Shown here piece after piece: positions 18,473 to 26,690 of a stretch of DNA of 43,491 nt; position 1 is the stretch's first letter; every line of letters starts with the position of its first letter. Below the pieces are notes generated by a model that did not search any database, was not told the DNA's origin, and saw nothing but the letters and a program-made list of their open reading frames with translations. The DNA lies in the NCBI GenBank assembly GCA_012728895.1, contig JAAYEG010000001.1, forward strand, positions 1 through 43,491. The letters are read 5' to 3'. The position numbers and the translations under genes were made by a program. This DNA comes from Methanospirillum sp. Its GTDB lineage: Archaea; Halobacteriota; Methanomicrobia; Methanomicrobiales; Methanospirillaceae.

Positions 18473-20416
18473 ATGACAGAGAAAGCCGCGATCATCGCCG
18501 AGATCGGGGAGCAGGCCGTCCTGCTCCCCGCCCTCGTTCAGCAGGCGCTGCTCGCCAACGACCGGATCAAGTACTTTTTCTCGCTTCTCCAGACGGCTGG
18601 CCAGCGTGCCGAACAGCCGGGCCAGACCCCGTCGAACCTGCGGGCCGAGCGAGAGGCCGCGAACATCGAGGACCAGTCGCTCGACAGCATCGTCGCCGGC
18701 ACGGTGCGGGTGGAGGACGGGTCCTACCGGGTCCCCCACCTCGACCGGGTCATGGGCGAGATGCGCCGGGCGACCGACGAGATGGTCCGGCCGTTCCTCG
18801 CGGCGGGGCTTGCCGGGGGAGAGGCCTTCCAGGCCCGCGCCCGCCGGCTTCTCGACGGGATCACGACCGACGGCGAGCAGATCACCGGCACCGAGATCGG
18901 CGCGATCACCTCGGGCGAGCGCGGGGCCCGGGACAGCCTCCACCTCCTGGTCATGGATCTGCACCGCGGGCTCAACGACCTCCTGGCCGCGCTCGCCAAC
19001 GAGTCCATCGACGGGGCGCAGGCCTACATGCTCGACGACGACGACGACCGCGACCTCGTCCGGGCGTTCATGCGGGGACTCAACCGGACTGCCCGGCTGA
19101 AGTTCGACCACCCGGGCCTCGGGACCACCGCCACCCGCTCCGGCGACCGGCTGGTGATCCAGAACGACATCGGGGTGACGGACGCCCACGTCCTCGTCGT
19201 GGCGGTGACCGGGTCGGCCGTCTCGATCACCTACACCGACGTCCACATGCCGCGCCTCACCTTCTTCCAGTCGCTCTTCGACGAGTGGGAGGTCGAGTGG
19301 TCCGACACCCTCTCCCGCCGCCCGGGGGGGCTGAAGTCCGCCGGGATCTACCACCTCACGACCGGGGTCTACCGGGGGAACGGTGCCGGGGATGCGGCCA
19401 CCTTTCTCGCGCACCTCGGGTCCCGCCTCGTCTTCCTCATCGACTGGAACAAGGCCCGGAAGCAGCTCCGGAACTTCCTCCTGAACAAGGACGCGATCGC
19501 GGTGATCCGGCGCGCGGCGAACGAGGAGATCGGGCACCGCGGCTTCCTCGTCCTGGGCGGGAGCCGGCTGATCTACGGCGCCCTCGACCTGGCCGCCCGC
19601 GTCCCCCTCCGGTACGGCGAGCCCCTCCACCAGGTCCTCGGGCGCGAGAAGACCATGGAGTACCTCTCCTGGACCCTCCGCACCGCGTCGAGGGGGCTGC
19701 TCGAAGGGACGCCGCGGATGCTCCTCCAAGACCAGATCCGGACCGAGCTCCTCCGCTACTTCCGGTCCGCCCACGCGGAGCTCCTCGACCGGTGCCTCGA
19801 GCACGCCACCCACCTGTACGACGTCGCCGCCGCGTCCCAGAACTCCCTGATCGCCCTCCGGTCGGCCGAGGGGACCGACCGGGTCGCCCGGAACGCGCGA
19901 CGGGCGAAGGCCTGGGAACACGAGGCCGACATGATCGTCTCGGACGTCCGCCGGTTCTCGCGAAGGATCCCCGACGTCGGTTTCTTCGTGGACTTGATCA
20001 CGGCCCAGGACGACGCCCTGGACTACCTGGAGGAGGGCTGTTTCTTCTCGACCATCCTACCCGCGGGGGTGACCGCCCCCGGGAGCCTCTCGAGCCTCGA
20101 GGAGATGGCCGGGCTCAGCGTCGAGGCCGTCCGTGAGTTCATCCGGACGCTCTCGGCGGCGAAGTACATCAGGGCAGGCTCGACGCGGGACGAGATGCAG
20201 GACTTCCTCGCCGCGGCGAACCGGGTGATCGAGCTCGAGCAGGAGTGTGACGACGCCTGGCGGCGGACCCAGCTCCAGGTCGTCGAGGAGTCCGCCCACC
20301 CCGGGTTCCTGCAGGTCTCGACCACGCTCTCGCTGATGCTTGAGGAGTCGATCAACTCGCTCATGAAGGCAGTCTGGGTCCTCCACGACAACTTCCTGGA
20401 GGAGGTGGCACGATGA
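18473..20416 (+). CDS. Large protein with C-terminal PhoU/DUF47-like domain
   Basis: A 647-residue, probably cytosolic protein. Residues about 430-647 form a PhoU/DUF47-type helical bundle, with acidic metal-binding-type motifs EHEAD, DDALDYLEE and EQECDD. Residues 1-430 are not recognised. They contain a helical N-terminus, an acidic DDDDDRD run near residue 190, a beta-rich part (LVIQNDIGVTDAHVLVV) and a segment LVFLIDWNKARKQL. The gene overlaps the downstream PPDK-like gene by ATGA at 20413, so the two are probably made in a fixed ratio and work together. PhoU proteins normally gate phosphate transport, but no pst genes are near. ATG 18473 is chosen over an in-frame codon at 18401 because the TATA box lies between them. 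Confidence 0.75.
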   Translation: MTEKAAIIAEIGEQAVLLPALVQQALLANDRIKYFFSLLQTAGQRAEQPGQTPSNLRAEREAANIEDQSLDSIVAGTVRVEDGSYRVPHLDRVMGEMRRATDEMVRPFLAAGLAGGEAFQARARRLLDGITTDGEQITGTEIGAITSGERGARDSLHLLVMDLHRGLNDLLAALANESIDGAQAYMLDDDDDRDLVRAFMRGLNRTARLKFDHPGLGTTATRSGDRLVIQNDIGVTDAHVLVVAVTGSAVSITYTDVHMPRLTFFQSLFDEWEVEWSDTLSRRPGGLKSAGIYHLTTGVYRGNGAGDAATFLAHLGSRLVFLIDWNKARKQLRNFLLNKDAIAVIRRAANEEIGHRGFLVLGGSRLIYGALDLAARVPLRYGEPLHQVLGREKTMEYLSWTLRTASRGLLEGTPRMLLQDQIRTELLRYFRSAHAELLDRCLEHATHLYDVAAASQNSLIALRSAEGTDRVARNARRAKAWEHEADMIVSDVRRFSRRIPDVGFFVDLITAQDDALDYLEEGCFFSTILPAGVTAPGSLSSLEEMAGLSVEAVREFIRTLSAAKYIRAGSTRDEMQDFLAAANRVIELEQECDDAWRRTQLQVVEESAHPGFLQVSTTLSLMLEESINSLMKAVWVLHDNFLEEVAR

Positions 20417-22038
20417 CCGAGTCGCGGCGGATCGGCTACTTCGGGCCGAACCGGCTCGACCCGCCCCTCCCCGCGAGGCGGTTCGGGAACAAGGCTGCCA
20501 CGCTCTCGGAGATGGCCGCACTCGGCGTCCCGGTGCCGCCCGGGTTCGCCCTCGCGGTCGAGATCTGCGAGGAGTTCTTCGCGGACGACGGCGTCCTGCC
20601 CGACGACGTGCCGGCCCTCCTCGCGGCGGGGATCGAGAGCCTCGAGGAGTCGACCGGGCTCGTGTTCGGGGGTCCGCGCCGCCCGCTCCTGGTCTCGGTC
20701 AGGTCCGGCGCCCCGGTCTCGATGCCCGGGATCATGGAGACGGTGCTCAACGTCGGGCTCTCGCGGCAGACCGTCGAGGGGCTCCTCTTCCGCACCGGGA
20801 ACCCGCGCTTCGCCTGGGACTGCTACCGCCGGTTCCTGGCACAGTTCGGCCAGGTGGTCTGCGGCCACGAGCCGGGGCCGTACGCCGCCCGTGTCCGCGA
20901 GGCGCTCGCCGACGCGGGAGTCCCGGACGAGGACGAGCTCGACACCGCCGGGCTGCGGCAGCTGGCGGTCCAGTCCGAGCGCCTGTACGGCGAGCTCGGC
21001 ACGCCGTTCCCGACGGACCCGACCGCCCAGGTCCTCGCCTGCACAGAGGCCGTCCTCCGCTCGTGGCAGGGCCCGCGCGCCGAGGCGTTCCGCCGGGTCG
21101 CCGGCGCCCTCGACGCGCCCGGCACCGCGGTCACCGTCGAAGCGATGGTCTTCGGTAACCTCGGCGCCGCGTCTGGGGCCGGGGTCGCGTTCACCCGGAA
21201 CCCGTGGTCCGGGGAGGACCGTCTTCTGCTCGACTTCCGTTTCGGGGCGCAGGGCGAGGAGGTGGTCTCGGGGGAGCGGGCGGGGCTCGACCAGGACGCC
21301 TTCGCCCGGATCATGCCCACGCGGTTCGCCGCCCTGCAGGAGATAGGCGATCTGCTGGAGCGGCACTACCGCGACATGCAGGACATCGAGTTCACCATCG
21401 AGGAGGGGCGGCTCTTCATCCTCCAGAGCCGGGCCGGGAAGCGGACCCCGTTCGCGGCGCTCACGATCGCGGCGGCGATGGTCCGCGAGGGGCTGATCTC
21501 CGAAACCGAGGCCGCCGAGAGGCTCGAGGGGGTCTCCCTGGAGACGATCCGAACCCGCCGTGTGGTCGCGGGGAAGGACCTGGTCGGGGAGGGGGTCCCG
21601 GCCTCGGGGGGAGTCGCCACCGGGACGATCGCCCTCTCGGGCGAACGGGCCGAGACCGACCGCGAGTACGGCCCCGTCGTCCTGGTCAGGCCGACCGCGA
21701 GCCCCGACGATATCGAGGGGATCGGGGCCGCCTCCGGGCTGCTCGTCTCCCGCGGCGGCCGGACCTCCCACGCCGCCGTGGTCGCACGGCAGATGGGGCG
21801 GGTCTGCGTCGTCAACTGCCGCTCGCTCGCGATCGACGCGGCCGGGCACCGGTGCACGATCGGGGGCACCGTCCTCCGGGAGGGGGAGGTGATCACCATA
21901 GACGGCGACACGGGGGCTGTGTACGCCGGCGAGGTGGAGATCCGCGAGGAGAGACCGTCGGAGCTGATCGACGCCGCCCTCACCTGGCGCTCGGCGCGGT
22001 CGTCCGCGCCGCGGAACGACCCGGTCCGCCAGGCGTGA
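20413..22038 (+). CDS. Truncated pyruvate phosphate dikinase-like phosphotransferase (no PEP/pyruvate domain)
   Basis: A 541-residue protein matching the first two domains of PPDK. Residues 1-345 are the ATP-grasp-type nucleotide domain (FGNKAATL, VSVRSGAPVSMPGIM, RFAWDCYRRF). Residues about 385-510 are the phosphohistidine swivel domain, with GGRTSHAAVVARQMG and catalytic H453. Full PPDK has about 870-900 residues and ends with a PEP/pyruvate TIM barrel, absent here without any sign of truncation damage. The protein can probably phosphorylate its histidine from ATP, but the final acceptor must differ or lie on another protein. Its coupled partner is the PhoU-like protein upstream. Rifampin phosphotransferase is a precedent for a changed acceptor domain, but its layout differs. 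Confidence 0.85.
   Translation: MTESRRIGYFGPNRLDPPLPARRFGNKAATLSEMAALGVPVPPGFALAVEICEEFFADDGVLPDDVPALLAAGIESLEESTGLVFGGPRRPLLVSVRSGAPVSMPGIMETVLNVGLSRQTVEGLLFRTGNPRFAWDCYRRFLAQFGQVVCGHEPGPYAARVREALADAGVPDEDELDTAGLRQLAVQSERLYGELGTPFPTDPTAQVLACTEAVLRSWQGPRAEAFRRVAGALDAPGTAVTVEAMVFGNLGAASGAGVAFTRNPWSGEDRLLLDFRFGAQGEEVVSGERAGLDQDAFARIMPTRFAALQEIGDLLERHYRDMQDIEFTIEEGRLFILQSRAGKRTPFAALTIAAAMVREGLISETEAAERLEGVSLETIRTRRVVAGKDLVGEGVPASGGVATGTIALSGERAETDREYGPVVLVRPTASPDDIEGIGAASGLLVSRGGRTSHAAVVARQMGRVCVVNCRSLAIDAAGHRCTIGGTVLREGEVITIDGDTGAVYAGEVEIREERPSELIDAALTWRSARSSAPRNDPVRQA

Positions 22039-22134: not shown

Positions 22135-26690
<4,556 letters not shown>

Follow-up and report, generated by a model that had tools for sequence, protein, structure and literature searches.

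Where does a phosphohistidine deliver its phosphate when the protein that carries it ends before the usual acceptor domain? This question is raised by two overlapping genes in a 43,491-nucleotide stretch of DNA (hereafter the window; positions 1 to 43,491 of contig JAAYEG010000001.1, assembly GCA_012728895.1) from Methanospirillum sp., whose source metagenome-assembled genome comprises ~2.28 Mb and has its nearest named relatives in the Methanoregulaceae (Methanomicrobiales). The upstream gene (18473..20416, + strand) encodes P1, a 647-residue protein with an unmatched front domain and a PhoU/DUF47-like tail, while the downstream gene (20413..22038, + strand) encodes P2, a 541-residue kinase of the pyruvate phosphate dikinase (PPDK) type without the phosphoenolpyruvate (PEP)/pyruvate barrel. 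The stop codon of P1 and the start codon of P2 overlap in an ATGA (20413..20416, + strand), which implies coupled translation, and the ATG at 18473 is supported as the P1 start because the N-terminus is conserved in 32 relatives. These coordinates, the protein lengths, the four-base overlap and the predicted phosphohistidine H453 of P2, all given in a preliminary description of the locus, were confirmed from the sequence. The pair is probably an uncharacterised phosphate-transfer module, a reading based on its position within polyphosphate gene clusters of several archaea.

A dikinase half and its PhoU-tailed partner

The first half of PPDK catalyzes the reversible reaction ATP + Pi -> E-His~P + AMP + PPi, in which Pi is phosphate and PPi pyrophosphate. 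P2 matches the Pfam families PPDK_N (6.7e-38) and PEP-utilizers (6.7e-20), and its residues 24-527 align to residues ~18-528 of C. symbiosum PPDK, after which P2 ends; neither the Pfam scan nor this alignment places a PEP/pyruvate barrel (PF02896) in it. The bit score of P2 is 515.7 against NCBIfam TIGR01828 (PPDK; cut-off 843) and 409.8 against NF004531, a PPDK model of 534 positions (cut-off 456). Structurally, the protein comprises a nucleotide-binding ATP-grasp region (20482..21447, + strand; PF01326) and a phosphohistidine swivel domain (21574..21939, + strand; PF00391), the latter matching PDB 2fm4 over residues 388-509. H453 (codon 21769..21771, + strand; sequence context GGRTSHAAVVAR), the predicted phosphohistidine, is equivalent to H455 of PPDK. 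The residues K27, R97, E326, Q338 and R340 of the ATP-grasp region, together with T451 and H453, are invariant in 38/38 sequences of the P2 clade, whereas R450, directly before the TSH motif, is specific to the clade and present in 37 of the 38. Because the ATP-grasp catalytic residues and the phosphohistidine of PPDK are kept in this way, P2 appears to be a functional first half of PPDK that would probably still be able to charge its histidine with phosphate. Domain matches and alignment thus agree with the earlier proposal that P2 keeps the nucleotide and phosphohistidine domains of PPDK and stops before the barrel.

The tail of P1 (residues 415-647; 19715..20413, + strand) is a helical bundle of the PhoU/DUF47 type. 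While PhoU_div (PF01865) matches residues 440-598 under the Pfam cut-off (E=2e-4), Foldseek relates the tail to PDB 3l39 (TM 0.84 by target length), as well as to 2olt and 1t72, and the P1 profile matches stand-alone proteins of DUF47 size with E-values down to 1.5e-11. Of the ExxxD motifs in the tail, E482..D486 is nearly invariant and E589..D593 is invariant. The PhoU/DUF47 identity proposed for the tail is therefore clear by fold and profile despite the sub-threshold Pfam score, and the PhoU helical bundle with its ExxxD motifs is confirmed for this C-terminal domain only. DUF47/PhoU_div (PF01865) proteins share the fold and the motifs but usually stand alone at ~210 residues, whereas in P1 the DUF47-like domain lies behind a front of 412 residues.

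In the case of this front domain (residues 1-412; 18473..19708, + strand), the AlphaFold2 prediction is confident, with a pLDDT (predicted local distance difference test) of 90.4 and a pTM (predicted template-modelling score) of 0.80 for the front alone, and a pLDDT of 87.8 for the whole of P1; plasmid-derived relatives were left out of the fold job. The model combines helices with an antiparallel sheet. No match was found in Pfam, NCBIfam, PADLOC, PDB sequences or PDB folds, and a Foldseek search of the PDB with residues 1-419 gave no match at E<0.001, in keeping with the preliminary description, which had called the front unrecognised. An alignment of 31 sequences shows ~50 invariant columns in the front, including six histidines and clustered Asp/Asn/Arg/Lys; among these residues are H157, H164, H213, Q230, N231, D232, H239, D256, H258, R261, D324, W325, N326, R329, K330 and H355, and the short invariant clusters read QNDIGxTDAH, TDxH and DWNxARK. 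As judged from sequences and model, the front is a conserved, uncharacterised domain without a match to a solved fold.

Several other candidates for the front were set aside. A viral model library and a PDB sequence profile search gave chance matches only, a rifampin-binding or barrel fold found no counterpart among PDB folds although rifampin phosphotransferase structures are present in the PDB, and an anti-phage defence role received no PADLOC match. A small regulator-like neighbour at locus L049 shares no Pfam family with P1, nor does it resemble P1 by eye.

Short proteins that resemble parts of the front were also observed. One genus of the same family carries front-only proteins (L017 1009-2025, + strand, ~340 residues; genomes G1016, G1018, G1019, G1023 and G1026), and the L017 copy, which has neither the PhoU tail nor the QNDIG/DAH/TDxH motifs, is apparently degenerate or repurposed. 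In the acidobacterial loci L061, L062, L063 and L068, proteins of ~200-280 residues resemble P1 residues ~30-110, and those of L061-L063 adjoin genes that resemble ones for glycogen debranching and glycoside hydrolases.

Relatives of P1 occur in Methanomicrobiales, one Nitrososphaerales archaeon, Beta-, Gamma- and Alphaproteobacteria and Acidobacteria, as well as on plasmids of Methylocella and Aquabacterium, where P1 is annotated as 'DUF47 family protein' or 'phosphate transport regulator' and is followed by a 'PEP/pyruvate-binding domain-containing protein'. Wherever the DNA extends far enough past P1, a truncated PPDK of ~525-545 residues follows on the same strand. Of 41 relatives, 16 have an extensive match to P1, and these genomes, and no others, also have a match to a truncated PPDK. 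The pairing is obligate and is retained from methanogens to Pseudomonas, so that conservation of the two genes as neighbours holds across two domains of life; a lack of such conservation, which the preliminary description would have taken as a refutation, was not observed. The family itself is patchy: strong P1 matches were counted from the listing in 44/232 genomes of the class, and it is present in 4/399 Pseudomonadota genomes, 2/199 genomes of the Granulicella phylum and 1/200 of the Nitrososphaerales phylum. Beyond the pair there is no fixed operon, as no neighbouring gene is conserved across the loci.

Barrel-less and divided dikinases

Divided dikinases occur in nature, and a separate subunit could in principle supply the PEP/pyruvate barrel of a split PPDK or PEP synthase to which P1 would be an accessory. 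The preliminary description had named such a subunit as one of two findings that would overturn it; the subunit was looked for and not found. The genome does encode one barrel-bearing protein, as its single PF02896 (PEP-utilizers_C) match lies in a separate 801-residue open reading frame on another contig. That protein, however, has dikinase-like matches of its own upstream of the barrel and is PEP-synthase-like, and P1 and P2 are therefore not a split PPDK. P1 is itself no barrel according to Pfam and fold searches, and no barrel gene adjoins the pair in any relative examined. The split PPDK is rejected on the location of the single barrel and the fold of P1, and we consider it extremely improbable; the search covered an assembly that is 95% complete and may lack a gene.

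Truncated PPDKs are not unique to this pair. In a maximum-likelihood tree, a branch with 100/100 support separates all 38 P1-partnered P2 sequences from truncated PPDKs found in Streptomyces, Rhodococcus, Skermanella and Azospirillum and from full-length PPDKs. The actinobacterial truncated PPDKs in this tree, which does not include the mycobacterial VadK (Rv1127c), fall outside the P2 clade. On this sequence tree, the P1-partnered P2 proteins are shown to share common descent, separate from other truncated PPDKs. Outside the clade, Rhodococcus plasmids (L086 1824-5458; L085 1-5722) carry truncated PPDKs in operons with a separate 'PEP-utilizing enzyme' and hypothetical proteins, and these probably represent additional modular dikinases that use other acceptors. 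In Skermanella and Azospirillum (L047 2436-5590; L048 651-5602), truncated PPDKs have pyruvate kinase and genes related to glyoxylate or oxalate as neighbours.

Two kinds of characterized system bear on how such a protein may work. VadK of M. tuberculosis is a PPDK without the barrel that autophosphorylates on the equivalent histidine; like P2, it has the ATP-binding and phosphohistidine domains, lacks the PEP/pyruvate domain and has an operonic partner, but no PhoU-like character is reported for this partner (Rv1126c), and VadK acts on the methylcitrate cycle (PMC13400623). PPDK itself (TIGR01828; PDB 1KBL) shares with P2 the aligned first half and its catalytic residues and differs in having the barrel. 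In HpeHI, CreHI and PpsAB, dikinases are divided between two co-encoded proteins, one of which holds the acceptor site (PMC12167813). In these systems the ATP-grasp domain stands alone and the swivel is joined to the substrate domain, whereas P2 joins ATP-grasp and swivel; moreover, P1 looks unrelated to the substrate subunits of these systems and has a PhoU tail. Truncated PPDK kinases and two-component dikinases are thus already known, and to this extent the module is less unfamiliar than the preliminary description had supposed. No description of a truncated-PPDK clade tied to a PhoU-tailed partner with an unmatched front came up in the literature searched, which included few subscription papers; within it, neither P1 and its front nor the association with polyphosphate genes seems to have been described.

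The logic of HpeHI, CreHI and phenylphosphate synthase could extend to the pair if the P1 front bound an organic substrate that P2 phosphorylated for catabolism or activation. Two-component dikinases that operate in this way are known (PMC12167813), the truncated PPDKs on the Rhodococcus and Skermanella plasmids lie in catabolic operons, and the Methylocella pair comes after beta-oxidation genes. However, neither a stand-alone ATP-grasp subunit nor a rifampin-binding-like substrate domain is found in P1 or P2, the P1 front does not match the solved rifampin-phosphotransferase structures, and the split point differs because P2 holds both ATP-grasp and swivel. Since a conserved catabolic neighbour is also absent across the bacterial loci and such pathways are of little use to methanogens, phosphorylation of an organic substrate seems quite unlikely.

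Polyphosphate gene clusters and the acceptor of the phosphohistidine

The neighbourhoods of the pair in several archaea point toward polyphosphate. The polyphosphate kinase gene PPK1 and the exopolyphosphatase gene PPX precede the pair on one strand in G852 (PPK1-PPX-P1-P2) and in G899 (PPK1-CHAD/HD-PPX-P1-P2), while in G936, G040 and G890 the pair adjoins PPK1, a CHAD-metallophosphoesterase gene and PPX. PhoU also lies beside the pair in G040 and G890, the latter with Pst genes, and in G016 PPK1 and CHAD are found ~6 kb away; in G945 the pair is followed by a histidine phosphatase and then PhoU-PstS. PPK1-linked archaeal pairs are usually accompanied by exopolyphosphatase, CHAD and PhoU genes. 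CHAD proteins, which bind polyphosphate (PMC6537752), share these clusters with the pair, but the P1 front does not match CHAD in sequence, nor does CHAD appear in the list of its fold matches. The earlier statement that no pst or PEP synthase genes are adjacent holds for the neighbours scanned in the window, whereas in relatives pst, phoU and ppk genes do adjoin the pair.

PPK1 is present in 21/21 carriers of the pair and in 78/150 genomes of the order (p=2.4e-7, without phylogenetic correction), and it lies within 10 kb of the pair in 6/21 archaeal carriers, with ~0.2 expected (2.7e-8; 3.6e-5 when four lineages are counted). On the P1 tree, four changes are required to explain the PPK1-linked state, which occurs in three families and may be an ancestral arrangement that has partly dispersed.

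We favour, with about an even chance of being right, an obligate two-protein phosphotransfer module in which P1 provides the second site and which serves phosphate or polyphosphate homeostasis. P2 would run only the first PPDK half, so that ATP, with Pi, charges H453 and AMP and PPi are released. P1 would stand in for the missing barrel as a dedicated second site, a role suggested by the ability of VadK to autophosphorylate without the barrel and by the division of a dikinase into two proteins in HpeHI. The swivelling phosphohistidine would dock on the His/Arg/Lys-rich P1 front, which would be, or bind, the phosphoryl acceptor, and the PhoU-like, putatively metal-binding tail may tune or localise the module. 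The phosphohistidine could then extend or consume polyphosphate or Pi on P1, or phosphorylate P1 as a signal. Of the possible final acceptors, namely P1 itself, polyphosphate or Pi, and a small molecule, phosphate or polyphosphate seems the likelier from the archaeal gene clusters. The phosphate link of the preliminary description is in this respect strengthened by the PPK1, PPX, CHAD, PhoU and Pst neighbourhoods.

Several points weigh against this module. The PPK1 p-values are post hoc, because the polyphosphate hypothesis arose from reading the neighbourhoods, and the co-occurrence test carries no correction for phylogeny. In the window and at most archaeal positions the pair lies away from PPK1, and proximity to PPK1 is found in 0/13 bacterial or Nitrososphaerales carriers, though 12/13 of them have the gene. 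P1 could also be a regulator or scaffold instead of an acceptor.

A more specific version, which we regard as unlikely, is a polyphosphate dikinase in which H453~P would exchange with polyphosphate (polyP), or Pi, on the P1 fold according to ATP + Pi + polyP(n) <-> AMP + PPi + polyP(n+1). Such an enzyme would connect ATP with PPi, AMP and polyphosphate by a new route and would allow the energy of PPi to be recycled in methanogens and bacteria.

A regulatory function is suggested by a different neighbour. In G852, G899 and G945, a SixA-sized histidine phosphatase gene (His_Phos_1) adjoins P2 (L124 6826-7317, L125 491-979 and L136 8597-9028). P2 could accordingly be a metabolite-sensing histidine autokinase in the manner of VadK, with P1 as its protein target and the phosphatase as off-switch; the state of the phosphohistidine would signal ATP, Pi or PPi to a PhoU-type effector, without any metabolic product. 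VadK regulates through protein contact and requires its histidine (PMC13400623), the P1 tail is PhoU-like, and PhoU and Pst genes occur near the pair. The three phosphatase genomes, however, belong to one P1 clade and count as a single event, and the large P1 front, with its ~50 invariant columns and His/Asp/Asn/Arg/Lys clusters, would suit an active site better than a simple receiver. We therefore hold the regulatory function to be possible but doubtful.

The annotation pyruvate phosphate dikinase is widely given to truncated PPDKs despite the missing PEP/pyruvate site, and because the P2 clade has a fixed partner, the destination of its phosphohistidine is testable with two proteins. If polyphosphate or P1 proves to be the acceptor, as the favoured module would have it, the pair would represent a new enzyme or signalling route in the phosphate and pyrophosphate economy of archaea and bacteria.

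Surroundings of the pair

In the window, the pair lies between a UPF0147/helicase region and bacterial-type gyrA and gyrB (22135-26659, - strand), which adjoin it, are both called with TTG starts and have no obvious link to it; this synteny with gyrA/gyrB is conserved within the genus only. At isolated bacterial loci, the neighbours include an ABC sugar/phosphate-type transporter, a phosphodiesterase, phosphoketolase with acetate kinase, and PRPP synthetase, which are no more than suggestive. Two genomes, G003 and G021 (L007/L024 and L016/L019), have an interrupted P1 reading frame, which may reflect assembly errors or decaying copies.

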